Positions 32,999 through 62,604 of a DNA stretch of 64,000 nt are shown here, in pieces; the stretch's first letter is position 1, and each line of letters opens with the position of its first letter. The translations under genes and the position numbers were made by a program. The notes beneath the pieces are model-generated. The model searched no databases, was not told where the DNA came from, and was given only the letters and a program-made list of their open reading frames with translations. This DNA is from Mycolicibacterium tusciae JS617. Its GTDB lineage: Bacteria; Actinomycetota; Actinomycetes; Mycobacteriales; Mycobacteriaceae. The stretch is taken from positions 4,402,001-4,466,000 of the forward strand of contig NZ_KI912270.1 of NCBI RefSeq assembly GCF_000243415.2, given 5' to 3'.

Positions 32999-33078
32999 TG
33001 AGGTGAGCCCGTCGTAGTGGTCCAGTCATTGTGGGACTCTGTTGCCCGGTGTTCGGGCGAGGAAGAATCAACAACGAC

Positions 33079-36715: not shown

Positions 36716-37786
36716 ATGCGCACGATTGGCGAGCCCGCCATCGGGGCCGAATCTCTTATTGCCGAATACTCGGCGGTGATCTGCGATCTCGACGGTGTCG
36801 TGTATCGCGGCGCGGCGCCCGTACCCGGCGCCGTCGAGACCCTGAACCGGCTATCCGCGAACGACATACCAGTCGTTTTCGCGACCAACAACGCATCTCG
36901 CTCGCCCGACGCCGTCGGCGACCATCTCCACGAGCTCGGCATCGGGCGAGACGGGTGGATAGTGGTAACCAGTTCCCAGGCGGCCGCGGCATACCTCGCG
37001 GCGCGGCTACCCAAGCGGACCGCTGTACTTGCGGTCGGGGGGCCAGGGGTCGTGCAGGCACTCACTGACGTCGGACTGGTCCCGGTTCGCGTCTCGGAGT
37101 TGGCTGGCGCATCCGTCGAGGCGGTGGTCCAGGGCCTTGGGGTCGACGTCACCTGGAGTGAACTCGCGGAGGTCGGCTACCGCGTCGAGGCTGGGGCGAC
37201 CTGGGTGGTCACCAACCTCGACATCATGCTCCCGACGTCGCGCGGGCCGGCACCGGGCAATGGTGCGTTGGTCATGGCCGTGCAGACGGCGACGACCGTG
37301 ATCCCGCACGTGGTCGGCAAGCCGGGTAGGGCACTCTTCGACCTGGCACGCGCCACGCTCGGCGTCGAACAAGCGGAGACCGTTGTGTGCGGTGACCGGC
37401 TGGACACCGACATCGAGGGTGCCAACGCTGCCGGTCTGGACTCCTTGCTGGTCCTGAGCGGGGCCTCAGGTCTGAAGGACCTTGCGTTCGCCGCGCCGAC
37501 CGCCCGTCCGACATATGTGGCCGCCGGCCTGACCGGATTGCTCGAGCCCGGCGTGCGCCTGTGTGCGGCTCCGGACGACGTCGTCGAGCCCGTGCCCGAT
37601 GCCGTTCCGCACAACTGGGGCAATGGCGACGACGGCCGCTTGTTGCGGTCCGTCGTGACGACGACGTGGGCAGCCCTCGACGCCGGTCGGGCGGTCTCCG
37701 AAGACACCGGTATATGGCGGCGACTCGAGGGACAGCTTGGTCTCGGCCGCAGCCAACCACCTTCGGAAACCGGAGGACAACGATGA
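36716..37786 (+). CDS. HAD-IIA phosphatase, phosphoglycolate/glycerol-3-phosphate phosphatase-like (NagD/Gpp type)
   Basis: The 356-residue HAD hydrolase has motif I ICDLDGVVY, motif II FATNNASRS, the NagD cap containing WVVTNLD, and motifs III/IV GKPGRALFD and VCGDRLDTDIEGANAAG. The last 80 residues are an extension of low conservation. In CBB gene sets a phosphoglycolate phosphatase removes the RuBisCO side product; the context (CbbY, epimerase, PRK nearby) makes that role plausible, but the catalytic core alone does not fix the substrate. GAGGAG lies before ATG 36716. Its TGA overlaps the start of the next small gene. Confidence 0.83.
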   Translation: MRTIGEPAIGAESLIAEYSAVICDLDGVVYRGAAPVPGAVETLNRLSANDIPVVFATNNASRSPDAVGDHLHELGIGRDGWIVVTSSQAAAAYLAARLPKRTAVLAVGGPGVVQALTDVGLVPVRVSELAGASVEAVVQGLGVDVTWSELAEVGYRVEAGATWVVTNLDIMLPTSRGPAPGNGALVMAVQTATTVIPHVVGKPGRALFDLARATLGVEQAETVVCGDRLDTDIEGANAAGLDSLLVLSGASGLKDLAFAAPTARPTYVAAGLTGLLEPGVRLCAAPDDVVEPVPDAVPHNWGNGDDGRLLRSVVTTTWAALDAGRAVSEDTGIWRRLEGQLGLGRSQPPSETGGQR

Positions 37787-38043
37787 CCACATTCGCCGCC
37801 GCAGCCACCGACAGCCAGACCTGGGTCGTCACCGGAGTGAGGAACTGCGACATATACGGGTGCAGCCAAGACGCTGCCATCATCGCCGACACCTGCAACT
37901 ACGCCCGCTTCTGCCTCACCCACGCCGCCGCAGCAATTGGCATCGCGCTACGCGACCCCATGTTCAATGGCTGGTACCGCATCACCGCCGGCCACTACGA
38001 CGACACCCGGCACTGCCTCATCGTCACGGTGCATCCGCTCTAA
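37783..38043 (+). CDS. Small Cys-containing protein coupled to the phosphatase gene (86 aa)
   Basis: Family not recognised. ATG 37783 overlaps the phosphatase stop (ATGA), and CGGAGGAC lies upstream as a strong ribosome site, so translation is probably coupled. The protein has four Cys within a 25-residue span (CDIYGC, then TCNYARFC) and several His near the C-terminus, which could bind a metal. It ends 4 bases inside the convergent cbbY-like gene. Confidence 0.6.
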   Translation: MTTFAAAATDSQTWVVTGVRNCDIYGCSQDAAIIADTCNYARFCLTHAAAAIGIALRDPMFNGWYRITAGHYDDTRHCLIVTVHPL

Positions 38044-38732
38044 CCGCCCAGGCGGTCGTGGAACCACCCGACGAGCGCCGGGTCGGTGAGCCCGTCTGCG
38101 ACGAGCGTCGCCCCGGACAGGTCGTCGTTTCGGGTGTACGAGTTGTATGCGGCCAAACAGCGCAGACCGGCGGCGACCGCGGCCTGCACACCGTTCGCGG
38201 AGTCCTCAATGGCGACCGCACGCCCGGGCTTGCAGCCCGTCCTGCGCAACACCTCGAGGTACACAGCCGGGCTGGGCTTCAGGTCGGAAACCTCGGTTCC
38301 GGTTATCACTGTTTCGAATCTGTCGCCGAAGGCATGCTTCAGAAGAGGTTCGACCCACGCGCGTGTGCCGGTTGTCGCGACGTGCATCGCAACACCGCTC
38401 GCCTCCAGCACATCGACCAACTGGTGAGTGCCGGGCCGGGCCTGTATGTGCCCATCCGCGATCAGACGGCGCATGATTTGCGTCTTCCGCTTGTGCAGTC
38501 GCTTCGCGAGCCCAGCGGCCTCGTCCGGTGACCTGCCGTTGTTCTCGAGCCAGAACCTTAACCGCTTCGCGCCTCCGGTGATCTTCAGCAACTGCCCATA
38601 GGTGTCGACGTCCCAGTAATCGGTGAGCCCGGCCTCCTCAAACGCCTCGTTGAAGGCCACCCGGTGGCCATCTCGCTCGCTGTCGACGAGCGTGCCGTCG
38701 ACGTCGAAGATGACTGCTTCGAGGCGGCTCAT
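38040..38732 (-). CDS. cbbY: CbbY-type HAD phosphatase (xylulose-1,5-bisphosphatase-like)
   Basis: A 230-residue HAD-IA enzyme with FDVDGTLVDSE (nucleophile and acid Asp), a four-helix cap containing YWDVDTYGQLLKITGGAKR, ATTGTRAW (motif II), KPSPAVY (motif III Lys) and IEDSANGVQAA (motif IV). The WD..Y..LL..TGG.. cap pattern is that of CbbY, which destroys the RuBisCO inhibitor xylulose-1,5-bisphosphate. It lies 16 bases after the epimerase gene on the same strand. Beta-phosphoglucomutase-type relatives share the fold, so function is likely rather than certain. Confidence 0.8.
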   Translation of the reverse strand: MSRLEAVIFDVDGTLVDSERDGHRVAFNEAFEEAGLTDYWDVDTYGQLLKITGGAKRLRFWLENNGRSPDEAAGLAKRLHKRKTQIMRRLIADGHIQARPGTHQLVDVLEASGVAMHVATTGTRAWVEPLLKHAFGDRFETVITGTEVSDLKPSPAVYLEVLRRTGCKPGRAVAIEDSANGVQAAVAAGLRCLAAYNSYTRNDDLSGATLVADGLTDPALVGWFHDRLGG

Positions 38733-38748
38733 CTGTGGCCGAGGTTTG

Positions 38749-39456
38749 TCACCTGGCTGCCTCGGCGTGTGGCGTTATCTCGATCGCGGCAGCGCGCAAC
38801 TGTTTGACAGCGGCCGCCTTGCCTTCCGGGTACGTGTACATCCACGAGCCGGAGATGAAGACATCGGCGCCGGCGGCGGAAGCGCCACGGATGGTTTCGT
38901 CTGTGATGCCGCCGTCGACCTCGAGTTCGATGGGTAGCCCGGATTCGTCGATCATCCGTCGCAGGCGCGCGATCTTCGGCTCCACGGCGGTGATGTAGGA
39001 CTGGCCGCCGAATCCCGGGTTGACGGTCATGGGGAGGACCAGGTCTGTCACGGGCAGGACATGCTCGACAACCTCGGCGGGAGTGTGCGGGTTCAGCGCG
39101 ACGCCGCTGCGCGCGCCGAGGTCGCGGATGCGCGCCAGGGTGCGGTGGAGGTGGGTACAGGCTTCGGCGTGCACGATGACCAGCTCGCATCCCGCGTCGA
39201 CATACCGCCCCAGGAGCTCGTCGGGGTTGACGACCATGAGATGAGCTTCGAACCCGACGGTGCTGTGCGGGCGCGCTGCCGCGATGACGTCGGGGCCGAA
39301 GGTGAGGTTCGGGACGAAGACACCGTCCATGACGTCCCACTGGATCCGGTCCACCCCCGCCTCGCACAGCTCCCCCACCTCGTCACCGAGACGGGCGAAG
39401 TCGGCAGGCAACACCGACGGCACGATGAGCGGCTGGTTGACGCTGGAGTCGGTCAT
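38749..39456 (-). CDS. rpe: Ribulose-phosphate 3-epimerase
   Basis: The 235-residue TIM-barrel enzyme interconverts ribulose-5-phosphate and xylulose-5-phosphate. Signature segments are PSVLPADFARLGDEV, WDVMDGVFVPNLTFGPDV (catalytic Asp and metal ligands), HLMV, VNPGFGGQSYI (phosphate loop) and VDGGITDETI (second catalytic Asp). Its ATG overlaps the stop of the upstream GH15 gene (ATGA). With cbbY downstream and prk/fbp divergently placed, it would serve CBB regeneration as well as the pentose-phosphate pathway. Confidence 0.95.
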   Translation of the reverse strand: MTDSSVNQPLIVPSVLPADFARLGDEVGELCEAGVDRIQWDVMDGVFVPNLTFGPDVIAAARPHSTVGFEAHLMVVNPDELLGRYVDAGCELVIVHAEACTHLHRTLARIRDLGARSGVALNPHTPAEVVEHVLPVTDLVLPMTVNPGFGGQSYITAVEPKIARLRRMIDESGLPIELEVDGGITDETIRGASAAGADVFISGSWMYTYPEGKAAAVKQLRAAAIEITPHAEAAR

Positions 39457-41468
39457 TGGCGCGGCCTTTCCGATCGGGGTGTGTGTTCATCCGACCGGAT
39501 CACGCCCGCGGCGGACACACCCACGGGGGTGGAAGGCAGGGTGACATCCCGTGGAATGTCGTGCCGCCGTTCCGCCCGGATCACGGCGGTTACCGCGTTG
39601 ATCAGCGCCAGGTGCGTGAACGCCTGCGGAAAGTTTCCGAGGTGCCGCCCGCTGTGCGGGTCGATCTCCTCGGCGTAGAGCCCGAGGCTGCTTGCCGACG
39701 CCAGCAGCTTTCCGCACAAGGTTTTGGCTCGCGCCAATTCGCCGATCTCGACCAGTGCGGAGACGAGCCAGAAAGAGCAGATTGTGAAGGTGCCCTCCTC
39801 ACCGCTGAGGCCGTCCTCGGTTTCGTCGAGGCGGTAGCGCAGGACCATTTCCTCCTCGGTGAGCTCGTCGGCGATCGCCAGCACGGTGGCGCGAACCCGC
39901 TCGTCGCTGGGTGGCAGGAATCCGAACAACGGAATGAGTAGCACCGAGGCGTCAAGGGCCTTGGTGTGGTAGTGCTGGGTGAACACACCGCGCTCGTCGA
40001 CGGCGTTGGCGAGCACGTCAGCGTGGATTTCCTCGGCGGCGATGCGCCACCGGGCGGCGAGCTTGTCCTCGCCGCGCACTTCTGCGATCCGCGCGCCGGC
40101 GTCGGCGGCAACCCAGCAGGCCACCTTTGAGAAGGTGAAGTGCTGTGCGCCGGACCGCACCTCCCAGATGCCCTGGTCGGGTTCGCGCCAATGCTTGAGC
40201 GCGCGCTCCACCTGAGTTCGTACGATCCGCCACAGCCGGTCTTCGACGCGATGGTGCGGACCGGTGTGCAGGTCGATCGCGCGCACGATCGCGCCCCACA
40301 CGTCGTGCTGACGTTGGTTGTAAGCGCCGTTGCCGACCCGGACCGGTTGCGCCCCCTCGTATCCGGACAGGTGATCCAAGGCCGTCTCGGTGAGGGCGCG
40401 CTCACCGTCGACGCCGTACATCAACTGCAGGTCGGTATCCGCGGCTCCGGCCACGTCGGCGACGAACCGGAAGAAGTCGTTGGCCTCCCATGCGAGGCCC
40501 AACGCATTCAGCGCCCGCAACGTCTTGGCGGTGTCGCGTATCCAGGTGTAGCGATAGTCCCAGTTGCGCTGGCCGCCAGGAGTTTCCGGGAGAGACGTCG
40601 TTGCGGCCGCCACCATCGCTCCGGACGGGGAGTAGCTCAGGCCCTTGAGCGTTAATGCACTGCGCTGAAGATGGTCGCGCCAGCGATGGTCAGGGAACGT
40701 GCCACGATCGAGCCAATGCTGCCAGTGGTGGCAGGTCCAGCGGAGTTGATGCAGCGCGTCGCCGAGTGTCGCCGGCGGCGCGTGTTTGCTCCACGACAAG
40801 GCGACGAACCTGCGCTCTCCCTCCTTCAGCAGCGTGCGTGCGGTGGCTGTCGGACCCTCGAACCCGATGTTCAGATCGGTCGTGAGGCGTAACCGAGTTC
40901 CGGCGCCTTGCGGAGCCGCCTGGCCTGCGACATAAGGATCCGCCTCGGCGATTGCCTCGTGGTAGCCGTCGCCAGTGTAGGACCAGCAGGGCGGTGAGCG
41001 GCCGTAGTCGAACGAGGGCGTGCAGTCGACGTCCACCTGCACCCGGCCGTTGACACAACGAAGCACGCGCAGCAATACGTGCGCCGCGTCGTAGTCTGTG
41101 GGCGCCCGGCGATGCGACTCCGAGCGCTCGTTCTCGTGATGCCATGGCCCCATCAGCAAGGCGTCAGTGACGACCAGCCAGCCACCCGGCGTCCACCAGC
41201 TGGTCTCGACCACCAGCGTGCCGGGTACGTAGCGGCGTGCGGAAGGGACGTCGACCCCGGCGGGACCGATTCGGAAGTGTCCGGCGTCGCGATCCAGGAT
41301 GGCGCCGAACACGCTGGGCGAGTCCATTCGTGGCAAGCACAGCCACTCCACTGCCCCGTCGGGCGCGATCAGCGCCGTCGTCTCGCAGTCGGATAAGAAC
41401 GCATAGTCCTCGATCGGCGGAAAATGGCTCTGCTCCACACCGAGCCCACGCCTCGCCTCATTGACCAA
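39453..41468 (-). CDS. GH15-family glucoamylase/trehalase
   Basis: The 671-residue protein has an N-terminal beta-sandwich (IEDYAFLSDCETTALI start) and an (alpha/alpha)6 catalytic domain with YRYTWIRDT and the acid-base region GLYAEEIDP. Mycobacterial members of this family are trehalases (Rv2402 type), so hydrolysis of trehalose or an alpha-glucan in the cytosol is likely. The start is TTG 41468, supported by GGAGG upstream; GTG eleven codons in is an alternative. It overlaps rpe by 4 bases, forming a GH15-rpe-cbbY operon that would release hexose into the sugar-phosphate pool. Confidence 0.88.
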   Translation of the reverse strand: MVNEARRGLGVEQSHFPPIEDYAFLSDCETTALIAPDGAVEWLCLPRMDSPSVFGAILDRDAGHFRIGPAGVDVPSARRYVPGTLVVETSWWTPGGWLVVTDALLMGPWHHENERSESHRRAPTDYDAAHVLLRVLRCVNGRVQVDVDCTPSFDYGRSPPCWSYTGDGYHEAIAEADPYVAGQAAPQGAGTRLRLTTDLNIGFEGPTATARTLLKEGERRFVALSWSKHAPPATLGDALHQLRWTCHHWQHWLDRGTFPDHRWRDHLQRSALTLKGLSYSPSGAMVAAATTSLPETPGGQRNWDYRYTWIRDTAKTLRALNALGLAWEANDFFRFVADVAGAADTDLQLMYGVDGERALTETALDHLSGYEGAQPVRVGNGAYNQRQHDVWGAIVRAIDLHTGPHHRVEDRLWRIVRTQVERALKHWREPDQGIWEVRSGAQHFTFSKVACWVAADAGARIAEVRGEDKLAARWRIAAEEIHADVLANAVDERGVFTQHYHTKALDASVLLIPLFGFLPPSDERVRATVLAIADELTEEEMVLRYRLDETEDGLSGEEGTFTICSFWLVSALVEIGELARAKTLCGKLLASASSLGLYAEEIDPHSGRHLGNFPQAFTHLALINAVTAVIRAERRHDIPRDVTLPSTPVGVSAAGVIRSDEHTPRSERPRQ

Positions 41469-41505
41469 AGGAGTTCACCTCCATCCATCTGCATCTCGGC
41501 ATCGC

Positions 41506-41952
41506 TCATCGCTCGATGAGTCGTCGACTCCCGCCGGCTGATAGCCGGCTGCGCAGCAGCGGTACGGCGGCCTCGGCCAGCCGGATCGGGTCGATCGGGT
41601 GCTGCACGGTGGCGTCGACTCGCGACCAGTGCGCCAGCCACGCGTCGTCCGGGCGACCGGTCAGGATCAGGATCGGCGGGCACTGGTCGACCTCGTCGCT
41701 GAGTTGCTTGGCAATCCCCATCCCGCCCGCCGGTGTGGCTTCGCCGTCCAGGATGGCCAGGTCGACGTCGCCGGCGTCCACCCACTCGATGATCACCGAG
41801 CTGGTCGCGACCTCCAGGTAGCTGATCTCCGGCAGGTCAGCGCGCGGGCGTGTGCCCAGCGCTTGGATGACCTGCCGACGGGTCTGGGCGTTGTCGCTGT
41901 ACACCAGCACACGTAAGCGCGTGTGGCCCGCCACTGTCGTCGCCTCGGTCAT
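41506..41952 (-). CDS. Atypical response-regulator receiver protein, Rv3143-like
   Basis: The 148-residue single-domain protein has the CheY-like fold: RVLVYSDNAQTRRQVIQAL at the start, the phospho-acceptor candidate Asp in LAILDGE, and LTGRPDD near strand 4. No DNA-binding domain is attached. In M. tuberculosis a similar receiver gene (Rv3143) lies beside the nuo operon. Here it is next to GH15-rpe-cbbY, 37 bases upstream of GH15, and separated from nuoN by fbp and prk. No kinase gene is near. It may signal through protein contact; this is inference. Confidence 0.8.
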   Translation of the reverse strand: MTEATTVAGHTRLRVLVYSDNAQTRRQVIQALGTRPRADLPEISYLEVATSSVIIEWVDAGDVDLAILDGEATPAGGMGIAKQLSDEVDQCPPILILTGRPDDAWLAHWSRVDATVQHPIDPIRLAEAAVPLLRSRLSAGGSRRLIER

Positions 41953-42109
41953 GAGCGGATGCTAGTGCGATCCAGCCGGCTTTTCGGTGTGACGGCCGTC
42001 GTCCACCCGTCGGTCCACCCACAAGGGGGATGGTCCGCATCACGGCCTGACACAACCTGTGACTGGGCCTTTGGTTTCGTCCGCCTGACGCTGGAACGGG
42101 GTATGAAAA
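41953..42109. promoter_or_regulatory. Divergent promoter region between receiver/GH15/rpe/cbbY and fbp/prk
   Basis: This 157-base gap must hold both promoters of the divergent operons. A spaced TCAC...GTGA pair (about 42039-42061) could be a LysR/CbbR-type site, but the TNA spacing of CbbR motifs is not cleanly met. No cbbR gene is visible in the window. Confidence 0.4.
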
Positions 42110-43183
42110 ATGCTGACCAACCACACGACTCTGGTGCGGTTCCTGATCGAGGAACGTCAACGCCATCCGGGCGCCAGTGGTGAACTCAACGCGCTCATCC
42201 TCGACGTCGCCCTCGCATGCAAAGCGATTGCCAACCGCATAGCGCTAGGGGAACTCGGCGGAGCGCTCGGCTCTGCCCAGGCTGTGAATGTGCAGGGCGA
42301 AGTTCAGCAGAAGCTCGACGTCATCGCCAACGACTACTTCCTGCGCACCAACGAATGGAGCGGGCAAGTCGCCGGGATGGCGTCTGAGGAACTCGACGAT
42401 CCCTACCTGCTGCCGGCCGAATACCCCAGGGGCAAGTACCTTCTGGTGTTCGACCCGCTTGATGGATCCTCCAATATCGACGTCAACGTCTCCGTGGGAA
42501 GCATCTTCTCCATCCTTCGGGCCCCCAGTCCCGGCGTCGACCCCAGCGTGGACGACTTCCTGCAGCCGGGGTCGTCGCAAGTATGTGCCGGCTACGCCCT
42601 CTACGGCCCGTCGACGTTGCTCGTTCTCACGGTCGGGACTGGGGTTCATTGCTTCACACTGGATCCTGGATTGGGCGAATTCATCCTCACCCGCCAAGAC
42701 CTCCAAATCCCCTCCACCGCAAAAGAGTTCGCGATCAATGCCTCGAACCGGCGGTTCTGGGAACCTGCAGTAAAACGGTACATCGACGAGTGTCTTGCCG
42801 GCCGGGCAGGCCCGCGCAGGCGGGACTTCAACATGCGCTGGGTCGCCTCGCTGGTCGCCGAGACGCACCGCATCCTCACTCGCGGAGGCGTTTTCCTCTA
42901 CCCCCGCGACTCGAAGGATCCGGCCAAGCCGGGCCGGCTTCGGCTGATGTACGAGGCCAGCCCCATGGCATTCCTCATCGAGCAGGCGGGTGGTCTGGCG
43001 AGCACGGGCCGGGGCCGGATGCTCGACGTCGTCCCCGAACACCTTCACCAGCGTGTGCCCTTCATCTTCGGAGTGAAAGAGGAAGTGGAGCGCATCGAGG
43101 CCTATCACCTCGAAAGCAACGACCACCCAGGCGATTCGCCGCTCTACAACAGCCGTGGGCTGTTCCGCTCCGCGGCTGGTTGA
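42110..43183 (+). CDS. fbp: Class I fructose-1,6-bisphosphatase
   Basis: The 357-residue class I FBPase carries [10 protein letters not shown] (metal-site Glu), the signature [17 protein letters not shown], and [15 protein letters not shown] near the C-terminus. It hydrolyses fructose-1,6-bisphosphate (and often sedoheptulose-1,7-bisphosphate in CBB operons). Mycobacteria normally rely on class II GlpX, so a class I enzyme is unusual here and fits CbbF. ATG 42110 matches the family N-terminus. Phosphoribulokinase follows 16 bases downstream. Confidence 0.93.
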
Positions 43184-43199
43184 GTTAGGAGAGAAGACA

Positions 43200-44084
43200 A
43201 TGTCCCGTCTGCATCCGATCATCTCGGTCACCGGTTCTTCGGGGGCCGGCACCACATCGGTGATGCGCACCTTCGACCAGATCTTCCGGCGGGAGGCGAT
43301 GAACGTCGCGTTCGTCGAGGGCGACAGCTTTCACCGCTACGACCGCAGTGAAATGAAGGCCGCGATAGCGGACGCTCATGCGCGCGGTGACCACACCTTC
43401 AGCCACTTCGGGCCCGAAGCAAATTTGTTCGAAGAACTCGCGGAGCTGTTCCGGGAATACGGCGAAACCGGGACCGGCAAGGTACGCCGATACCTGCATG
43501 ACGACAAGGAAGCAGAGCCGTACGGACAGGTGCCGGGCACGTTCACGCCGTGGGAATCGATCCCCGACGACACCGACATGCTGTTCTACGAGGGTCTGCA
43601 CGGCGCCATCGTCACCGACGACGTGAACGTCCCGCAGTACGCCGATCTGCGCATCGGGGTTGTCCCGGTGATCAACCTGGAGTGGATTCAGAAGATGCAT
43701 CGGGACAAGTCGTCCCGCGGCTACACCTCGGAGGCGGTCACCGACACCATCCTGCGGCGGATGCCCGACTATGTGAACTACATGTGCCGCCAGTTCTCAC
43801 AGACAGATGTCAACTTCCAGCGGGTGCCCATTGTCGACACCTCCAACCCCTTTATCGCCAGGTCCATTCCAACGGCTGACGAATCGATGCTCATCATCCG
43901 ATTCCGCGATCCGCACGGCATCGACTTCCCGTATCTGCTGTCGATGCTGCATGATTCGTTCATGTCGCGACCCAACACAATCGTCTGCCCCGGCGGCAAA
44001 ATGGATCTCGCGATGCAACTCATCTTCACACCGATGGTCCTGCGGCTGCGGGAGCGACGGACGGCCGAACTCAGCATCCGGTAA
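43200..44084 (+). CDS. prk: Phosphoribulokinase
   Basis: A 294-residue class I (bacterial-type) PRK with the P-loop TGSSGAGTTSV, EGDSFHRYDRSEMK, FEELAELFREY, FYEGLHGA and the Lys/Arg-rich KMHRDKSSRGYT. It makes ribulose-1,5-bisphosphate from ribulose-5-phosphate, a reaction with essentially one known use, to feed RuBisCO. GGAGAGAAG precedes ATG 43200. The start of the longer open frame (43155) lies inside fbp. It ends 19 bases from the convergent nuoN gene. RuBisCO genes are not in the window. Confidence 0.95.
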   Translation: MSRLHPIISVTGSSGAGTTSVMRTFDQIFRREAMNVAFVEGDSFHRYDRSEMKAAIADAHARGDHTFSHFGPEANLFEELAELFREYGETGTGKVRRYLHDDKEAEPYGQVPGTFTPWESIPDDTDMLFYEGLHGAIVTDDVNVPQYADLRIGVVPVINLEWIQKMHRDKSSRGYTSEAVTDTILRRMPDYVNYMCRQFSQTDVNFQRVPIVDTSNPFIARSIPTADESMLIIRFRDPHGIDFPYLLSMLHDSFMSRPNTIVCPGGKMDLAMQLIFTPMVLRLRERRTAELSIR

Positions 44085-44103: not shown

Positions 44104-45651
44104 TCAGCGCAGGAATGCGCCTGCGCTGACCGCCAGGTCCAGCATGGGCTGCGGCAGGACGCCGAACATCACCGTCCCGGCGACCCCCACCAGAATCGCT
44201 GCCGCGGTCCAGGAGCTGGGCACCGCCACCTGCGGCCCGTCGTTTGGCGGTGCCGAGAAGAACATCAGCAGGATCACGCGTGCATAGACGAATGCCGCGA
44301 TGGCGCTGGCGATGACACCGACGATGACCAGCGGGATCGCGCCGCCTTCGGCGGCCGCCTTGAACACCGCGAACTTGCTGACAAAGCCGCTGGTGAGCGG
44401 GATTCCGGCAAACGCAAGCAGGAACAGCGAGAACACCGCACCGAGAATGGGCGCTCGGCGCCCGAGGCCGGCCCAACGGGCCACGTCGGTGTCTTCCTCG
44501 CCACCGTCCGCGCGGACCAGAGTGACGACGGCGAACGCGCCGAGCGCGCTCAAACCGTAGGCAACAAGGTAAAACAGCGTCGAAGACAGCCCGGCATCGT
44601 TAGCCGCGATCACACCCATCAGGATGAAACCGACCTGGGCGACCGCGGAGTAAGCCAACATCCGTTTGATGTCGGTCTGGGTGACGACCATGACCGAACC
44701 CGCCACCATCGTGAGGATGGCGACCGCCCACAGCACGGGACGCCAGTCGTCACGCAGGCCGGGCAGTGCGACGTAAAAGATGCGCAGCGTGGCGCCGAAA
44801 GCGGCGATCTTGGTGGCGGCGGCCATGAATGCGGTGATGGGTGTGGGTGCACCCTGGTAGACGTCGGGGACCCAGGAGTGGAACGGCACGGCGCCGACCT
44901 TGAACAGGACACCGACCGACAGCAGACCCGCACCGATGAGGGCCAACGATTCGTTGCCGGCTCGGGCAGCAATCGCGTCGCCGATACCCGGCAAGCTCAA
45001 AGTGCCGGCGTAGCCGTAGAGCATGGCGGCGCCATAGAGGAAGAACGCCGACGAGAATGCGCCCAGCAGAAAGTATTTCAGCGCGGCTTCCTGGGACAGC
45101 ACGCGACGATGGCGGGCCAACCCGCAGAGCAGATACAGGGGCAGCGAGAACACCTCCAGCGCGATGAACATCGTCAGCAAGTCGTTGGCGGCGGGGAAGA
45201 GCAGCATCCCGCCGAGCGCAAACATCGTCAGCGGGAACACCTCGGTCTGGATGATCCCCACTTTGGTGGCTTCGAGCTGGGCGACGCTGCCGGGAACCGC
45301 GGACGCTTGCGGCGTGAAACCTTCCAGCCCGCCCTCGGCCCGACGTTCCGCGGCGAGCAGCACTGACAGCAGACCGACCAGCAGGATGATGCCCTGCAGG
45401 AACAGGGTCGGCCCGTCAACGGCGACCGCGCCTGCGACCGCCGCATGCCGAGTCCCGGCCAGCGCGATGACGGCCACCAGCGCGGCGGCCAACGCGGCGA
45501 CGCTGAGCACCAACTGGATCCCGTAGCGCCGGTTACGTGGCGCGAACGCCTCGACCACTACCCCGGCGACGGCCACACCGAAGACGATGAGCATCGGCGA
45601 GAGCTCACCGTATTCGACGCTCGGAGTGGGCATGCTCATCAACGCGGTCAT
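44104..45651 (-). CDS. nuoN: NADH-quinone oxidoreductase subunit N
   Basis: The 515-residue membrane-arm subunit of complex I has about 14 hydrophobic segments and the antiporter-like core YFLLGAFSSAFFLYGAA and GVLFKVGAVPFHSWVPDVY, with the Lys residues used in proton transfer, plus TQTDIKRMLAYSA. It is the last gene of the nuo operon. ATG 45651 overlaps the nuoM stop (ATGA). The open frame upstream to 46488 is a shadow inside nuoM. Confidence 0.96.
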   Translation of the reverse strand: MTALMSMPTPSVEYGELSPMLIVFGVAVAGVVVEAFAPRNRRYGIQLVLSVAALAAALVAVIALAGTRHAAVAGAVAVDGPTLFLQGIILLVGLLSVLLAAERRAEGGLEGFTPQASAVPGSVAQLEATKVGIIQTEVFPLTMFALGGMLLFPAANDLLTMFIALEVFSLPLYLLCGLARHRRVLSQEAALKYFLLGAFSSAFFLYGAAMLYGYAGTLSLPGIGDAIAARAGNESLALIGAGLLSVGVLFKVGAVPFHSWVPDVYQGAPTPITAFMAAATKIAAFGATLRIFYVALPGLRDDWRPVLWAVAILTMVAGSVMVVTQTDIKRMLAYSAVAQVGFILMGVIAANDAGLSSTLFYLVAYGLSALGAFAVVTLVRADGGEEDTDVARWAGLGRRAPILGAVFSLFLLAFAGIPLTSGFVSKFAVFKAAAEGGAIPLVIVGVIASAIAAFVYARVILLMFFSAPPNDGPQVAVPSSWTAAAILVGVAGTVMFGVLPQPMLDLAVSAGAFLR

Positions 45652-47219
45652 GGGTGCGGTCCTTCTGCGGTCATTGGTGCAGTCGGCGCGGGGTCGTGCT
45701 GGCCGATGGTGATCAGGGTGTGGCTGACCGCGGGGTTGATCACATCGAGTGCGGGTTTGGGGTAGATGCCCAGCACCAGCAGCAGGGCGATCAGTGGCGT
45801 GATGACCACGAGTTCGCGGGGAAGCAGATCGCGCAGCTTGTCGTTGCCGTCGGTGACCGGGCCGGTCATCATCCGCTGGTAGAGCCACAGGATGTAGATT
45901 GACGACAGCACCAGCGCGGTCGAAGCGAGTACCGCGAACACCGGGTAGCGGGTGAAAGTGCCGATCAGCACGAGGAATTCGCTGATGAACGGCGCCAGGC
46001 CGGGTAGGGCGAGTGTTGCCAGTCCGGCGACCAGGAAGGTGCCGGCCAGTACGGGCGCGACCTTCTGCACCCCGCCGTAGGCGGCGATCGCGCGGGTTCC
46101 CCGCCGCGACACCAGGAATCCGGCGATCAGGAACAGCGCCGCGGTCGAGATTCCGTGGTTGATCATGTAGAGCGTGGCGCCGGATTGTCCCTGGCTGGTC
46201 ATCACGAAGATGCCGAGGACGATGAATCCGAAGTGCGATATCGACGTGTAGGCGATCAGCCGCATCACGTCGGTCTGCCCGATCGCGACGATGGCGCCGT
46301 AGATGATCGCGATGACCGACAGCGTGATGATCAACGGCCGGAATATGGTTGAGGCATCTGGGAACAACTGCAGGCAATACCGCAGCATCCCGAACGTGCC
46401 CACCTTGTCGACGACCGCCATCATCAGCACCGCGGTCGCCGGGGTGGCCTCCACCGCGGCGCCCGGCAGCCAGGTATGGAATGGCCAAAGCGGTGCCTTG
46501 ACCGCGAAGGCGAACATGAAGCCGAGAAACATTGCGTTGAGCACGGCGGGATTGACGCCGAGTTGTCCGCTGGACACCGCGGCCACGATGGCACGGAAAT
46601 CAAATGTCCCCGATGTGCCGCCGCCGACGTCGCTCTGGGCGGTCACCACGTACAGGCCGATCACCGCTGCCAGCATGAGGAGCCCACCGAACAGGTTGTA
46701 CAGCAGGAACTTCAGAGCTGCTCTCGAGCGGCCCGTGCCTCCGAAGCTGCCGATGAGGAAGTACAGCGGGATGAGCATCGCTTCGAAGAACATGAAGAAC
46801 AGCAGCACGTCGAGGGCGATCAGCGAGACCAGCACCATGCCCTCGACGGCCAGGGTCAGTGCGACATAGGCGTGAGTGGATCGGCCCCGATCGCCCGCGT
46901 CGTTCCAGCCGGCGAGTAGAACCAGCGGCACCAGCACTGCGGTGAGCATTACCAGTGCCAACGCGATGCCGTCAATGCCGAGGATATAGCCAGCGCCGAA
47001 TGATGGTATCCAGGTGTGTGATTCGACGAACTGATACTGATTGCCCGTCGGTTGGAACCGGATCGCCAATACGACCGCGATGGCCAGGACGGCGATCGAC
47101 GCGATCAGGGCGGTGCACTTCGCGAGATGGCGGTGCGCCGCGGGCAGCAGCATGACCACGCCGGCGCCGATCAGCGGCACCAGCCACAGCGCGCTCAGCC
47201 ACGGAAAGTGACTCACCAC
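45648..47219 (-). CDS. nuoM: NADH-quinone oxidoreductase subunit M
   Basis: The 523-residue antiporter-like subunit of complex I has 14 or so helices, the Glu in [16 protein letters not shown] and the Lys helix [16 protein letters not shown]. It starts at GTG 47219, inside the end of nuoL. It forms a proton channel of the membrane arm. Confidence 0.96.
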
Positions 47220-49132
47220 ATCCTCACTAGGGCCATGGCGGCGACCACCAGAGTGGCGCCGACAAAGATGGATAGCGCATATGACCGCGCGAACCCCGTC
47301 TGGAGCAGCCGGATCCGGGCCGAGGCTGCGCCGATCACCCGGGCCAATCCCTCCACAAGCCCGTCGATTCCCCGCCTGTCGACATCAACCAGCGAACGGC
47401 TCAGGGCACGGCCGGGACGCATGAAGACCGCCTCGTTGATCGCATCGCCGTAGAGGTCGTCGCGGGCGGCCGCGGTCGCGCCCGAAACCCATGAAGTGGC
47501 AATGGCTTTCACCGGTTGGATGGCGTACATCCGGTAGGCGACGGCCACACCGATGGCGACGACCGAGAGGGTGATGACAGTCATCACCCAGACTGGGGTG
47601 GCGTGTTCGGCTTCGTGGTGACCGACGACGGGTTCGAGCCAGTTCTGCAACGTGCCGCCGATCACAAGCAAAGCGCCGCCCGCGACCGAACCCGCCGCGA
47701 GCACGATCATCGGCCACGTCATCACCGCAGGCGATTCGTGCGGATGCCTGACACCATCCCCCGTCGCTTCGCCGGTCCCGTCATTCCAGCGGCGTTCCCC
47801 GAAGAACGTCATCAGCATGACGCGGCTCATGTAGAAAGCGGTGATCCCTGCGCCCAGCAGTGTGGCGCCACCGAGGATGAGTCCTTTGAGTCCGCCTGCG
47901 GCAAAGGCTGTTTCGATGATCGCGTCCTTGGAGAAGAACCCCGCGAATGGCGGCACGCCGATGATGGCGAGATATCCGAGCCCGAATGTGGCGAATGTAA
48001 TCGGCAGGAACTTTCGCAGCCCGCCGTAGCGACGCATGTCGACGTCGTCGTCCATGGCGTGCATCACCGAACCCGCGCCAAGGAACAGGCCGGCCTTGAA
48101 GAAGCCGTGGGTCAGCAGGTGCAGGATCGCCACCGCATACCCGGCCGGGCCGAGGCCGGCGGCGAGCACCATGTAGCCGATCTGGCTCATCGTCGAGGCG
48201 GCGAGCGCCTTTTTGATGTCGTCCTTGGCGCAGCCGACGACCGCCCCGAACAGCAAGGTGACCGCGCCGACGATGACGACGCCGAGTTGGGCGTAAGGGG
48301 CCAGGTTGAACACCGGACCGGACCGCACGATCAGATAGACGCCGGCGGTCACCATCGTGGCGGCGTGGATCAGCGCCGACACGGGGGTGGGACCCTCCAT
48401 GGCATCGCCGAGCCAGGACTGCAGCGGCACCTGCGCGGATTTGCCGCATGCGGCAAGCAGTAGCAGCAAGCCGATCGCGGTCAGCGTGCCTCCCGACGAC
48501 TCGGCCAGTGCCGGGGCGGCGCCGAACACGCCGGCATAGGAGATGGAGCCAACAGCGGCGAACATCACCATGATGGCGATCGCCAACCCCACATCGCCGA
48601 CCCGGTTCACGACAAACGCCTTCTTGGCTGCGGTGGCCGCCGACGGTTTGGCCGACCAGAATCCGATCAGCAGATACGACGCCAAACCGACGCCTTCCCA
48701 GCCCACATAGAGGCCCAGGTAATTGTCGGCCAGCACCAGCAGCAGCATCGCGGCCACAAACAGATTCAGGTACGCAAAAAAGCGACGGCGACCGGCGTCC
48801 TCTTCCATGTAGCCGATCGAGTAGATGTGGATCAGCGAGCCGACGCCGGTGATCAACAGCACGAAACACACCGACAGCGCGTCGAGTTGCAGACCGAAAT
48901 CGACCTGCAGGCCGGCGACCGGCACCCAGGAGAACAGGTTCTCATGCACAGCCCGGTCGGCGACGTCGGAACTCAGCAGGTCGATGAACAGCACAACCCC
49001 GAGCGCGAATGCGGCGAGCGATGTCGCGCAGCCGAGGAGATGTCCCCACCGGTCGCTGCGCCGCCCGGTCAGCAGCAACACCACCGCGCCCGCCAGCGGT
49101 AGTGCGATCAGCAGCCACACCAGAGTCGTCAT
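47213..49132 (-). CDS. nuoL: NADH-quinone oxidoreductase subunit L
   Basis: The 639-residue largest membrane subunit carries the core [20 protein letters not shown] and [20 protein letters not shown] (proton-path Lys), followed by the C-terminal lateral-helix region. It starts one base after the nuoK stop and overlaps nuoM by seven bases. No truncation is seen. Confidence 0.96.
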
Positions 49133-49133
49133 G

Positions 49134-49433
49134 TCAGTGCCGCAGCAGGTTGGCGGCGTCGACCGAGGCCGACCGGCGGGTGCGGAAGATGGTCATGATG
49201 ATCGCCAACCCGACCACCACCTCGCAGGCGGCGACGACCATCGTGAAGAACGCCACCACCTGCCCATCCAGGTGGCCGTGCATCCGGGAAAACGCGACGA
49301 ACGCCAGGTTCGCGGCGTTCAGCATGAGCTCAACACACATGAACATGACAAGGGCGTTGCGCCGCAACAGCACTCCCGCCGCGCCGACGGTGAACAACAA
49401 CGCAGACAAGTAAAGATAGTTGACCGGGTTCAC
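49134..49433 (-). CDS. nuoK: NADH-quinone oxidoreductase subunit K
   Basis: A 99-residue protein with three membrane helices and the buried Glu residues in [14 protein letters not shown] and [10 protein letters not shown] that belong to the E-channel. It starts at GTG 49433 and overlaps the nuoJ stop. Length is standard. Confidence 0.96.
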
Positions 49434-50239
49434 TGCACACCCTCTTCGGCAGACGAATTCGATGCCGTGTCGGCATCCGCGACGAGCAGCGTCAGCACAA
49501 GTCCCCGCCGCTCCAGGGTTCTGCTGACCGAAAGGTCGCAGAGGGCGCCGCCGGGGAGCCGGGCGGGAATGTCGACGGCGTTGTGGCGGGCGTAGACGCC
49601 GGGCGCAGGCATCGGGGTGGGGTGCCCGCCGGGCTGGAACCGCTCCTGGGCGAGTTCGCGTTGGCCCTTGCGTCGTGAGAGGCGTTCCCGGTGGGCCAGC
49701 ACCATCGCCGCCAGGGTGGCGGTGATGAGTAGCGCGCCGGTGAGTTCGAACGCCCACAGGTACCTGGTGAAGATCAACGCCGCCAGCCCCTGCACGTTAC
49801 CGCCGGCGTTGGCCTGCGCTAGGCCGGTGAACCCGGTCGTGGCGATGCTGCCGATGGCGCCGGCCAGCACGATCGCGAACCCGAGGCCCGCGACGACTGC
49901 GGTGAGGCGTTGTCCGCGAAGGGTTTCCACCAACGATTCGGAAAGATCGACGCCGACGAGCATGACGACGAACAGGAACAACATCATCACCGCGCCGGTG
50001 TAGACGACCACCTGCACCACACCGAGGAACAGTGCGTCCTGCGCGATGTAGAGCACTGCCAGGTTGATCATGGTGGATGCCAGGAAGATCGCCGAGTACA
50101 CCGCCCTGGGTGCCGCGACCACACCCACCGCTGCAAGCACCGTCATTGCCCCGAGGATCCAGAACACGACCGCCTCGGAGGTCGAGGTCTGCGCGAGGGG
50201 TTCGGCTGCAAGTAGTGCCGTCGAGGCGACGATGGTCAT
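49430..50239 (-). CDS. nuoJ: NADH-quinone oxidoreductase subunit J
   Basis: The 269-residue protein has five membrane helices, with the conserved [20 protein letters not shown] (pi-bulge helix) and a long hydrophilic C-terminal tail as in other mycobacteria. ATG 50239 overlaps the nuoI stop (ATGA). Confidence 0.95.
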
Positions 50240-50778
50240 GTGGCTGACCTCCTGGCTGGGTGGGTGTCCGTGGGGCCGGCGATGTTGCCGCGGTAGTAGT
50301 CCTCGTCGGTGGCGCCCTCGGCCATCGGGTGTGGTGTGGGCGCCATGCCGGACTGCAGTGGGGCGAGGAGCTTGTCCTTGCCGTAGATGAGGTCGGCGCG
50401 GTTGTTGTCGGCCATCTCGTAGTCGGTGGTCATGGTCAGGGCGCGGGTGGGGCAGGCCTCGATGCACAGCCCGCAGCCGATGCAGCGCAGATAGTTGATC
50501 TGGTACACCTGCCCGTAGCGTTCGCCCGGCGAGAAGCGTTCTGTCTCGGTGTTGTCGGCGCCTTCGACGTAGATGGCGTCGGCGGGGCACGCCCAGGCGC
50601 ACAGCTCGCAGCCGATGCATTTCTCCAGCCCGTCGTCGTACCGGTTCAACTGGTGCCGGCCGTGATAGCGCGGCGCGGTCGGCTCCTTTTGTTCTGGGTA
50701 CTGCTCGGTGACCGGCTTCTTGAACATCGTCGAGAACGTGACCCCGAAACCGGCAACCGCATCGAGAAACTTAGGCAT
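50236..50778 (-). CDS. nuoI: NADH-quinone oxidoreductase subunit I
   Basis: A 180-residue ferredoxin-like subunit with two 8-iron-type motifs, [12 protein letters not shown] and [12 protein letters not shown], which bind clusters N6a and N6b and pass electrons towards N2. Its start overlaps the nuoH end by 8 bases. Confidence 0.97.
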
Positions 50779-52084
50779 CGTGACTACTCCCCCTGGTCAG
50801 CACGGCGTCGATTCGGATCGGCTTCCCGTTGTGGATTGGCTTGGCGATGTGCTCGGCACTGGACACCCTGGCCGGGTGCGCCTGGCCCGGCAGCGGCGGG
50901 ATAGGGAATCCACCTACCATCGGGTCGAACGGCCGCACCGCTGTTTCCGGCTCAGGTTCACCTCGAGCGCGGCTGAGGCGCAACAGAATCAGCACCGCGA
51001 CGAGTAGGGCAAGGCCGGTGAGAATTCCTGGGATGACACCCGTGACATCGAGTGAACGCAAGGTGGCCACGGTCATGATCCAGGCCAGCGACACCGGGAT
51101 GAGGAGCTTCCAGCCCAGGGCCATGAACTGGTCGTAGCGCAGCCGCGGCAGGGTGGCGCGCAGCCAGATGAAGGCAAACAGGAACGTCCACACCTTGGCG
51201 GTGAACCAGATCAGTGGCCACCATCCGGAGTTGGCGCCGTCCCACATGTTGATCGGCCAGGGAGCATGCCAGCCGCCGAGGAAGATGGTGGTCGCCAGGG
51301 CGGAGACGGTGGTCATGTTGACGTACTCGGCGAGCATGAACATCGCGAACTTCAGCGACGAGTACTCGGTATGGAAGCCGCCGACCAGCTCGCCCTCTGC
51401 CTCGGGCAGATCGAAAGGCGCACGGTTGGTTTCGCCGACCATCGCCGTCACGTACACCAAGAACGACGGCAGCAGCAGGAAGACGTACCAGGTACCCTCC
51501 TGGGCCGCCACGATCCCCGATGTCGACATGGTGCCCGCGTACAGGAACACCGCCGCGAAGGACAACGCCATCGCGATCTCGTAGGAGACCACCTGGGCAC
51601 TGGAGCGCAAACCACCCAGCAGTGGATAGGTGGAGCCGGACGCCCAGCCGGCCAGCACGATCCCGTACACCCCGATCGAGGTGACCGCGAGAATGTAGAG
51701 CACCGCAACTGGCATATCGGTCAGCTGCAGCGGCGTGCGATGTCCCAACACCGACACACCGCCACCCATCGGGATCACCGCGAACGCCATGAATGCCGGG
51801 ATCACCGCGATGATCGGCGCGAGTAGGTAGATCGGCCTGTCCACCCCGGCCGGCACCAGGCCCTCCTTGAGGGCGAGCTTGACGCCGTCGACCAGCGACT
51901 GCAACATCCCGAACGGCCCCACCCGGTTCGGGCCAAACCGCATTTGCATCCGTCCAAGTACCTTGCGTTCGACCAGGATCGCCACCAGCACCGTCACAAG
52001 CAGGAACGCGAAGACACCGAGCGCCTTGGCCAGGACCAACCACCACGGGTCGTGGCCGAACATCGACAGGTCGGGTTGTTGCAT
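50771..52084 (-). CDS. nuoH: NADH-quinone oxidoreductase subunit H
   Basis: The 437-residue subunit has eight helices and forms the quinone-chamber floor. Signatures include [41 protein letters not shown] and [15 protein letters not shown]. The C-terminal extension of about 70 residues is hydrophilic, as in mycobacteria. ATG 52084 overlaps the nuoG stop by one base. Confidence 0.96.
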
Positions 52085-54471
52085 CAGCGCGTCCCCCGGA
52101 TCTGCACTACTGCACCGGTGGCGACCCCGAGCTGGGCGTGAACCGCCGACCCAATCGAATTGAGCGGCAGCCAGACCACACGGTCAGGCATCTCGGTGAT
52201 CGCGAGCGGCAGGCTGATTGCACCGCGGTCGGTGCTGACCGTCACCAGATCACCCGGCGTTGCGCTGATTTCGCAGGCCGTCGCCGCCGACAGCCGAGCC
52301 ACTGGGGGCCGCGCGGTGCCGGCCAGATTCGGTTCCCCATCCTGCAGTCGGCCGGCGTCGAGGAGCATCCGCCAACCGGCCAGCACCGCTTGACCGGCGC
52401 CGGGCCGCGCAGGCTCTTTTGGCCCGACGTCCGGTGTGGCGGGCCGCCGCCCGGCCCAGGCCCCGAGGCGCGCCAGCTCCGCCGCCGCGACGGCCGGAGT
52501 CGGGCAGCCAAGGTCGAAACCGATCTCGTCGGCGAGGACGTGCAGGACCCGCGAATCCGGGATGGCGTTGGTCGGCAGCGCGGCCTCAAACGATCGAAAA
52601 CGGCCCTCCCAGTTCAGGAATGCCCCAGCCTTCTCCACTGCAGGCGCGACGGGGAACACGACGTCGGCGAGGTCGGTGACCGCGCCCTGCCTCAACTCAA
52701 GGCTGACGACGAAGTGCGCGGCAGCGATGGCGGCGACTGCGGCGCCGGGATCGGGTAGGTCGGCGGGATCGACGCCGCCGATGAGCAGGGCGCCCAGTTC
52801 GCCGGTGCGTGCCGCGGCCAGGATGCCTGCCGTATCCCGCCCGGGCGCCGCGGGCAGGTCGGCGTGATTCCAGGCAGCGGCGGTCTGCTCGCGGGCCCGC
52901 TGATCGGCGACGGGTCGCCCGCCGGGCAGCAGGTTAGGCAGGCAGCCGGCCTCCAACGCGCCACGTTCTCCGGCCCGCCGGGGAATCCACGCCAGCCGCG
53001 CGTCGGTCGCCGCGGCGAGACGCATTGCGGCGGACAGTGCTCCGGGGCTGGTGGCCAGTCGCTCCCCTACCAGGATCAGAGCACCGGGTTGACGCAACAG
53101 CTCCTCTTCCGAGAGGCCGGCCAGGGCGGTGGCCTCACCACCCGGGGCTGTCGCGATGACGCGGCCACCCGTTTTGGTCAGGCCGCGGGTGGCGAACGGC
53201 GCGATCGAAAGGATCCGGGTGCCGTTCTTTCGCGCGGCTTTGCGAAGCCGGAGGAACACGATCGGGGATTCCTCTTCGGGCTCGAACCCGGCCAACAGAA
53301 CCGCAGGGGCATTTTCCAGGTCGGCGTAGCTGACTGTCATCGGTTGCCCGGCGACATGGGTGGCAAGGAACTGTGCCTCTTCATCTGAGTGGGGCCGAGC
53401 GCGGAAGTCGATATCGTTGGTGCCCAACACTGTTCGTGCGAACTTCGAATAGGCGTAGGCGTCTTCGACAGTGGTTCGCCCGCCGACAAGCACCCCTGTG
53501 CTACCCGTCGCGGCCGCCAGCCCGGTCGCGGCCACCCTGACGGCTTCCGGCCAGGATGCGGGCCGCAGCTTGCCGTCCACGCCACGGATCTGCGGTGTGG
53601 TGATGCGGTCACCGACCGTCGCATACGTGAACGCCCAGCGGCCCTTGTCGCAGTTCCACTCCTCGTTGACCTCAGGGTCGTCACCCGACAGCCGGCGCAG
53701 CACCTTTTCGCGGCGATGGTCGGTGCGCTGCGCGCAACCCGACGCACAGTGCTCACACACAGTCGGCGAGGAGACGAGGTCGAACGGCCGGGCCCGAAAT
53801 CGGTACGTGCTCCCTGTCAGCGCGCCGACCGGGCAGATCTGTACGGTGTTGCCCGAAAAGTACGAGTCGAACGGCTCATTGGCCGCAATGCCAACCTGTT
53901 GGGACGCGCCACGTTCCAACAGTTCGATGAACGGATCTCCGGCGATCTGCTTGGAGAACCGGGTGCAGCGGGCGCACAACACGCAGCGCTCCCGGTCAAG
54001 CAGCACCTGCGACGAAAGGTTGATCGGCTTAGGGAAGGTCCGCTTGACGTCGGTGAACCGACTTTCGGCCCGCCCGTTGGACATGGCCTGGTTCTGTAGT
54101 GGGCACTCCCCACCTTTGTCACAGACCGGGCAGTCCAGCGGGTGGTTGATCAGCAGTAGCTCCATCACGCTCTGTTGAGCCTTGTCCGCGGACTCCGACG
54201 TGTACTGCGTGCGCACCACCATGTCCGGTGTCACGGCGACCGTGCACGACGCAACAAGTTTGCGTTGCCCCTCGACCTCGACCAGGCACTGCCGGCAGGC
54301 TCCCACCGGATCCAACAGCGGGTGGTCACAGAACCGTGGAATCTGCACACCGATCAACTCCGCAGCCCGAATCACCAAGGTGCCCTGGGGCACCGACACC
54401 GGCACGTCGTCGATGGTGAGGTTCACCATGTCCACGTCGGTGGTGCTCTTCGTAGGCTCGACCAGAGTCAC
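52084..54471 (-). CDS. nuoG: NADH-quinone oxidoreductase subunit G
   Basis: The 795-residue iron-sulphur subunit has an N-terminal [2Fe-2S] set ([16 protein letters not shown]), the His/Cys cluster region [17 protein letters not shown], the [4Fe-4S] set [11 protein letters not shown], and the extra N7-type motif CEHCASGC, all followed by a molybdopterin-oxidoreductase-like domain. It starts at GTG 54471, overlapping the nuoF stop by four bases. N7 is found only in some bacteria. Confidence 0.96.
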
Positions 54472-55805
54472 CTCGCACCTACCTCAGCCGACGCAAGCAT
54501 CGAGGCGGACGGGTCAAACGGGCACCCGCCGTGTAGGTGTGCTTCGTACTCGGCGCGGAAGAAGCTGACCGACGAGATGATCGGGCTTGCTGCGCCATCG
54601 CCTAACGCGCAGAACGACTTTCCGAACAGGGTGTCTGAGATGTCGAGCAACTTCTGGATATCCGACTGGGTGCCCGCCCCGTTCTCCAACCGCTCATAGA
54701 TCTGCGTCAGCCAGTACGTGCCCTCCCGGCACGGTGTGCATTTGCCACAAGACTCGTGCGCGTAGAACTGGGTCCAGCGCCGCGCCGCGCGCACCACACA
54801 CGTGGTCTCGTCGAAGATCTGAAGCGCCTTTGTGCCCAGCATCGAGCCGACACCGGTCATGCCCTCGTAATCCAAGGGCACGTCAAGGTGTTCGGCGGTC
54901 AGCAGCGGCGTCGACGAACCACCCGGGGTCCAGAACTTCAACTCGTGCCCGTCGCGTACGCCGCCCGCGTATGCCAGCAGTTCGCGCAGGGTGATGCCGA
55001 GCGGCGCCTCGTACTGGCCGGGCCGATTCACATGCCCGGACAGCGAATACAGCGTGAAACCCGGCGATTCCTCTGACCCCATGGAGGTGAACCAGTCGAT
55101 GCCGTTCAGCAGGATCGGCGGGACGCTGGCGATGGACTCGACGTTGTTGACCACCGTCGGGCAGGCATACAGCCCCGCCACCGCCGGGAACGGCGGCCGC
55201 AACCGGGGTTGGCCGCGGCCACCCTCCAGCGAATCCAGCAGGGCGGTCTCCTCCCCGCAGATGTACGCGCCCGCCCCCGCATGTACCACCAGCTCCAGAT
55301 CGAATCCGGACCAGCCGATGTCACGGCCGAGGTAACCCGCAGCATAGGCCTCGGCGACCGCGGTCTGCAGCCGCCGCAGCACCGGAGCCACCTCCCCGCG
55401 CACATAGATGAACGCGTGATGTGCCCGGATCGCGTAAGCCGCGATGATCGCCCCCTCGATCAGGGCGTGCGGGGATGCCAGCATCAGCGGAATGTCTTTG
55501 CACGTACCAGGTTCGGACTCGTCGGCGTTGATTACCAGGTAGTGCGGTTTGGCACCGGCGCCGGTGTCGTCCTGTGGAATGTAGGACCACTTGGTGCCGG
55601 TACGGAATCCCGCACCGCCGCGGCCCCGCAACCCCGATTTCTCGACCAGCGCGATCACATCGTCGGGATCCATGCCGAACGCCTTGTCCAGGGCGCGGTA
55701 GCCGTCGTGGCGGCGATACGTTTCCAACGACCAGGACTCCGGCTCATCCCAGAACCGGCTGAGCACTGGCGTCAGAGGTGTCTGCGGTGTTCGCGAATGC
55801 GCCAT
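54468..55805 (-). CDS. nuoF: NADH-quinone oxidoreductase subunit F
   Basis: The 445-residue subunit binds NADH and [43 protein letters not shown] and the [4Fe-4S] cluster N3 motif [12 protein letters not shown]. It accepts hydride from NADH. Spacing to nuoE is zero bases (55805/55806). Confidence 0.97.
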
Positions 55806-62588: not shown

Positions 62589-62604
62589 TTTCCTCACATC
62601 CTTC

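Follow-up and report, generated by a model that had tools for sequence, protein, structure and literature searches.

How does a mycobacterial chromosome come to carry a phosphoribulokinase (PRK) gene among other Calvin-cycle genes with no gene for ribulose 1,5-bisphosphate carboxylase/oxygenase (RuBisCO) in sight? The question was raised by a stretch of 64,000 nucleotides, hereafter the window, from Mycolicibacterium tusciae JS617 (contig NZ_KI912270.1, here C4; C4:4402001-4466000), the genome of which is 7.3 Mb in four contigs. From the letters alone, an earlier note (the original prediction) had recognized within positions 36716-44084 genes for PRK, a class I fructose-1,6-bisphosphatase (FBPase), an epimerase, a CbbY-type phosphatase and a phosphoglycolate-phosphatase-like enzyme. 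It left open whether cbbLS sits elsewhere, was lost or is dispensable to a PRK with a RuBisCO-free purpose, and it suggested looking for cbbL, cbbS and cbbR in the full genome. All five genes are present at about these positions; a GH15 gene and a response regulator gene inside the interval had been overlooked. We propose, with a probability of about 0.93, that the interval represents a Calvin-cycle gene set and that the RuBisCO belonging to it is encoded beyond the window.

A search of the whole genome with PF00016 yielded a single match, at C4:4481025-4481948, 15 kb past the right edge of the window. It belongs to a form I cbbL, which together with cbbS and cbbX lies on the same contig as prk, at a distance of 34,878 bases, so that of the three options the first proved correct; a loss of RuBisCO finds no support. 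The Calvin cycle had appeared to be RuBisCO-less because the window ended 15 kb short of cbbL. At C4:4478562-4488187 are found cbbL, cbbS, cbbX and the genes for a LysR-type regulator, a class I fructose-bisphosphate aldolase, phosphoglycerate kinase (PGK), glyceraldehyde-3-phosphate dehydrogenase (GAPDH) and transketolase. CbbL (476 amino acids), CbbS, CbbX and the LysR protein are encoded tightly in this order on the minus strand, the LysR gene being the one nearest to the window (12.6 kb off); beyond these four lie the genes for the aldolase (plus strand), PGK and GAPDH (minus strand), transketolase (plus strand), HypA, a HypB-type protein and a hydrogenase pair.

CbbL scores 449.7 bits with PF00016 and 764 bits with NF003252 (cut-off 438), CbbS 133 bits with PF00101 and CbbX 474.7 bits with TIGR02880 (cut-off 459.25). 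The best matches of CbbL are form I enzymes (1BWV, 815 bits), in an alignment that covers almost the entire protein and takes in GTVVGKLEG; the protein also contains GLDFTKDDE, TTKPKLG and LHLHRAGH. Three of four motif patterns match; the fourth does not, its stretch being visible in the alignment with the form I enzymes. No carboxysome shell protein is among the proteins scanned around cbbL, a scan without a search aimed at shell proteins. The Calvin-Benson-Bassham set is present in the genome, with curated-family PRK, RuBisCO large subunit, small subunit and activase and with the regeneration enzymes that were scored (FBPase, aldolase, transketolase, epimerase, PGK and GAPDH).

The PRK gene (prk, cbbP; 43200..44084, plus strand) encodes a protein that reaches 496.6 bits with NF011997 (cut-off 362) and 424 bits with 1A7J, which we take to be the PRK of R. 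sphaeroides; with 1A7J it shares 186 of 286 aligned residues. Out of 19 selected positions inspected in this comparison 18 are identical and one is an S/T exchange. The open reading frame (ORF) spans 43155-44084; the start is most likely ATG 43200, which is preceded by AGGAGAG and lies 16 bases beyond the fbp stop, and not GTG 43155. A grouping with uridine-kinase-like proteins, named in the original prediction as what would speak against a Calvin-cycle role, was not found: only 43 of 208 aligned residues are shared with E. coli Udk, as against the 186 of 286 with 1A7J, and the score with TIGR00235 is 23 bits (cut-off 220). These identity counts are used instead of a PRK tree (25 rows), in which support was weak and the Udk and PrkB branches were very long.

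The E. coli protein PrkB is identical to the JS617 PRK in 169 of 289 aligned residues, while E. coli, which matches PF00485, is not one of the control genomes with a PF00016 match (5 of 14). The statement that PRK is almost without a role apart from ribulose 1,5-bisphosphate (RuBP) synthesis thus needs a caveat, and sequence alone is no proof of a role in the Calvin cycle. Could the PRK of JS617 have a function unrelated to RuBisCO, as may hold for the orphan PrkB of E. coli, with ordinary heterotrophic enzymes encoded next to it? The presence of RuBisCO in the same genome is against it, and so is the distribution of the two enzymes in 396 evenly drawn genomes of the genus, where PRK and CbbL (matches counted at E <= 1e-50) were each found in 52 genomes and both in 50. 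The two genomes with apparently only PRK (G281 and G391) were first read in this way because the RuBisCO query was form I; both contain a form II RuBisCO (NF010002, 810.7 and 895 bits; cut-off 489). All 52 PRK carriers therefore have RuBisCO, 50 of form I and 2 of form II. A RuBisCO-free PRK is thus rejected for the genus sample, as it is for JS617 on account of the cbbL gene, and as an explanation of the locus we regard it as extremely improbable. With no RuBisCO-free carrier of this PRK left in the sample, the paradox of a RuBisCO-less Calvin cycle is removed.

In the opposite direction, one of the two genomes with apparently only CbbL (G314, L136) carries, on the contig with cbbL, a PRK of another class (NF005655, 343 bits; cut-off 236), which adjoins transketolase and replaces the usual PRK; in the other (G293, 74% complete) no PRK was found. 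Thus 53 of the 54 carriers of PRK or RuBisCO have both. In the 50 genomes matching both queries, prk and cbbL are on one contig in 43 and on separate contigs in 6, cbbL being split in the remaining one. The gaps between the two genes range from 142 to 34,948 bases (34.8-34.9 kb in seven genomes including JS617), so that the arrangement in the window is only one of the spacings in which this set occurs. Passages of PMC7895386 rate Mycolicibacterium mageritense, being a human pathogen, as a likely false Calvin-cycle positive; judging from the counts in the genus, positives of this kind may be real. Judging by the coordinates, which agree between L034 and G281, the latter is apparently Candidatus Mycobacterium methanotrophicum; form II pairs are on L034, L132 and L133.

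Next to prk lies the gene for the class I FBPase (fbp, cbbF; 42110..43183, plus strand), scoring 516.1 bits with NF006779 (cut-off 349) and 416.7 bits with PDB entry 7K74. When the fetched flanks of the best 80 of 457 related PRK loci were compared, fbp was found in 77. Ribulose-phosphate 3-epimerase (rpe, cbbE) is encoded at 38749..39456 (minus strand; TIGR01163, 246.6 bits, cut-off 212.6) and a CbbY-like, that is xylulose-1,5-bisphosphate phosphatase-like, HAD-IA protein with a DVDGT motif at 38040..38732 (minus strand). The three best solved sequences for the latter are two named CbbY (4UAR with 144.8 bits and a second with 142.6 bits) and the Arabidopsis-type At3g48420 (141.4 bits); the next, which is not of the CbbY type, reaches only 59.4 bits. 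By similarity the CbbY label is well supported.

The phosphatase gene at 36716..37786 (plus strand; PF13344/PF13242) encodes a HAD-IIA protein, and to this extent the label phosphoglycolate-phosphatase-like was right. The only cut-off passed is that of the broad HAD-IIA subfamily TIGR01460 (121 bits, cut-off 100); with the phosphoglycolate phosphatase models the scores stay below the cut-offs (NF053752, 157 bits, cut-off 475; TIGR01452, 115 bits, cut-off 202), and the best solved relative, 4I9F (201 bits), is named glycerol 3-phosphate phosphatase. Because a homologue occurs in the fbp-prk flanks at 15 of the 80 loci, the protein may serve phosphoglycolate salvage, possibly as a 2-phosphoglycolate phosphatase. 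Nine of the homologues are at least 52% identical and come from records named Nocardioides, Kribbella, Actinophytocola, Acidobacteriaceae and M. neglectum; the other six (42-47% identity) may be different HAD-IIA genes.

Adjoining rpe is a gene for a GH15 trehalase-like protein (39453..41468, minus strand; PF00723, 231 bits; PF19291, 72.5 bits). At none of the 80 PRK loci was a homologue with at least 40% identity and coverage found, which rules the gene out as a conserved part of the locus; it is probably a passenger. It is followed by the gene for an Rv3143-family orphan response regulator, a companion of complex I (41506..41952, minus strand; NF050825, 206.3 bits, cut-off 200). The Calvin-cycle genes are bordered on the left, next to the HAD-IIA gene, by an IS3-family transposase (33042-34217, plus strand) and an IS256-family transposase (34865-36214, minus strand). 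Farther out lies an FGGY-family, xylulokinase-like sugar kinase (31091-32641, minus strand), which matches 12 NCBIfam families but reaches the cut-off of none.

To the right of prk the window contains a complete second complex I operon (44104..59467, minus strand), in which all of nuoA-nuoN were matched, nuoN adjoining prk and nuoA being at the far end. The operon sits between prk and cbbL, before hyp genes. These are hypD (61162..62301; TIGR00075, 500 bits, cut-off 193), hypC (the C-terminal part of the ORF 62316..62852; TIGR00074, 75.6 bits, cut-off 48) and hypE (62605..63753; TIGR02124, 417.6 bits, cut-off 252), all on the minus strand, as is a gene for a DUF6390 protein between nuo and hyp (60401..61165; PF19927, 366 bits). 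Two hydrogenase large subunits are encoded in the same region. The Huc-like one (L005:8006-10036) matches 7UTD, presumably the entry for the Huc [NiFe]-hydrogenase of M. smegmatis, over the whole chain with 1081 bits; the second (L006:5221-7017) is closest to HofG 5AA5 (1074 bits), an enzyme that we take to be of the actinobacterial group 1h type. A search with PF00374 gave two further loci, one 92% identical to the 5AA5-like copy and one NuoD-like (29% identity to NuoD). None of the four loci resembles the NAD-reducing hydrogenases, for which Synechococcus elongatus, with a presumably NAD(P)-linked enzyme, was the sole control and gave a match in the same search.

A gene set of this sort, with H2 feeding the Calvin cycle, has already been described. 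We envisage the interval as the left arm of a chemolithoautotrophy region of about 55 kb. PRK would make RuBP, which would be carboxylated by the form I RuBisCO encoded, together with CbbX, at a distance of 35 kb, and FBPase, aldolase, transketolase, epimerase, PGK and GAPDH would regenerate the cycle, perhaps under the control of the LysR protein. Inhibitory or waste sugar phosphates would be cleared by the CbbY-like protein, to which the HAD-IIA phosphatase may perhaps be added. Electrons from H2 would enter via the Huc and group 1h-type hydrogenases. The formation of NADH from menaquinol requires reverse electron flow driven by protons. Since Huc passes its electrons to menaquinone, as stated in the parts of PMC10017518 available, we propose that the second complex I runs in reverse on the proton gradient and thus provides NADH for the cycle.

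A complete cycle might also be used not for autotrophic growth but for redox balancing or the re-assimilation of CO2 while the cells grow heterotrophically or on C1 compounds. Most mycobacteria are known as heterotrophs, and of the two carriers with form II RuBisCO one (L034) is apparently a methanotroph, both of which fit such a use. The two hydrogenases and the hyp genes of the region speak against it, and H2-driven autotrophic growth is reported for Mycolicibacterium in sections of PMC12999727; a purely balancing or re-assimilating cycle thus seems unlikely to us.

Several observations nevertheless weigh against the scheme as a whole. The CbbY label, which stands as far as similarity to the solved enzymes goes, is not backed by an NCBIfam equivalog, no cut-off being reached among the best 25 of the 33 families matched. 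The LysR gene, co-directional after cbbX, has CbbR as its best NCBIfam match, but its 144 bits with NF045990 are far from the cut-off of 450. Hydrogenase genes are, in the excerpts of PMC7895386, usually more than 80 genes away from those for Rubisco or Prk in Calvin-cycle genomes, and by that account a hydrogenase-cbb clustering as tight as in JS617 is not the rule. Two NuoL are lacking in 16 of the 52 PRK carriers (10 have one and 6 have none); five RuBisCO carriers that are 99-100% complete (G043, G144, G176, G314 and G395) are without a NuoD match at 1e-100; and the prk-linked NuoL copies do not form one clade.

The last three points concern the second complex I. The other nuo cluster of JS617, at C4:2.41-2.43 Mb, encodes a NuoL 76% identical to that of the window; nuoB to nuoN were found there by similarity, and nuoA was not found with the rough query used. 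Upstream of its nuoB lies an Rv3143-type regulator gene, the product of which is 65% identical to the window regulator. In the 396 genomes (NuoL counted at E <= 1e-180, with at most three candidates scored per genome; counts were unchanged in 19 genomes in which all were scored) two NuoL matches occur in 36, all of them both PRK- and RuBisCO-positive, and in none of the 344 PRK-negative genomes. In a recount with NuoD, which comprised 48 hand-picked genomes with all candidates scored at a threshold of 1e-100, exactly one NuoD was present in each of the 34 PRK-negative genomes of at least 6.5 Mb. We tentatively suggest, and with more doubt than trust, that H2-fed autotrophic mycobacteria maintain in the autotrophy region a second complex I, equipped with an Rv3143-type regulator of its own and dedicated to generating NADH for CO2 fixation by reverse flow, the other complex I being left for ordinary respiration.

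The opposite explanation, that the operon is a hitch-hiking neighbour and no working part of autotrophy, is a serious possibility that we place just short of even chances. It would account for the 16 carriers with fewer than two NuoL, which leave it doubtful whether a second complex I is required, and for the scattered prk-linked copies. The NuoL tree (35 rows: 29 genome copies and 6 of 7 further PRK loci, some rows possibly being the same genome twice, and the G389 copy on another contig taken as prk-linked by assumption) needs 7 label changes, of which well-supported branches enforce at least 5, so that a single origin of the prk-linked complex I is not supported. In two genomes the copies are patchily alike: 500-column windows are 67-95% identical in G004 (L140/L141), where a piece of 910 bases reaches 97%, and 67-94% identical in G012 (L142/L143), and exact stretches of 128 and 179 bases are shared. 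This suggests gene conversion, which also fits a hitch-hiker. Difficult to reconcile with a hitch-hiker are the 0 of 344 PRK-negative genomes with two NuoL at threshold and the two JS617 clusters, the DNA of which is about 75% identical throughout the operon while the reading frames are intact, suggesting long-term upkeep.

Part of the missing copies may be an artefact. In 12 of the 16 carriers with fewer than two NuoL, taken together with G314, the recount gave two NuoD in one genome, one in six and none in six, and in the complete genomes without NuoD the contigs are possibly broken inside nuo. Of 11 mycobacterial PRK loci picked for a contig end in the flank, 8 end in, or not more than about 500 bases from, a NuoN/NuoL match. 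Because contigs end inside nuo and the copies are patchily near-identical, some second nuo copies were likely lost in assembly, and such a loss is the likely reason for the missing second NuoL in some carriers.

Among the literature matches listed, judged by title and start of abstract and with most subscription journals not covered, none dealt with a second complex I of mycobacterial autotrophs; its link with the autotrophy genes may be a new detail. A ranked-feature table in the portion of PMC7895386 at hand includes a quinone-reducing NADH dehydrogenase (6.05 and 4.94). The link is relevant to the question of where bacteria whose hydrogenases feed menaquinone get the NADH for CO2 fixation.

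Work on the RuBisCO of a mycobacterium, Mycobacterium JC1 (DSM 3803), reportedly exists. With the form I cbb clusters of actinobacteria and proteobacteria the JS617 set has PRK, FBPase, CbbL, CbbS, CbbX and regeneration enzymes in common; it differs from them in being split: a distance of 34.9 kb, in which nuo, hyp and hydrogenase genes are located, separates fbp-prk from cbbLSX. E. coli PrkB, for all its similarity, is encoded near crp with no cbb gene within 7 kb around prkB. The window regulator is of the same family as Rv3143/MSMEG_2064, for which an association with nuo is reported in the accessible text of PMC9274095, and like it is encoded near nuo, but fbp-prk lies between its gene and nuoN. 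The Huc of M. smegmatis (PMC10017518) has a large subunit like that of JS617, where the gene lies beside cbb genes. An association of hydrogenases with Calvin-cycle genomes is noted in the passages of PMC7895386. Comparable, too, are the H2-oxidizing, autotrophic Mycolicibacterium and the Mycobacteriales with form IE RuBisCO (RbcL of form IE in 7 of 7 species) in the available sections of PMC12999727, which report H2-fed Calvin-cycle autotrophy in Mycolicibacterium and RuBisCO together with hydrogenase in Mycobacteriales: as in JS617, RuBisCO, PRK, PGK, GAPDH and hydrogenase occur in one genome. To that account, which in these sections covers gene content, JS617 adds the gene order and the second complex I.

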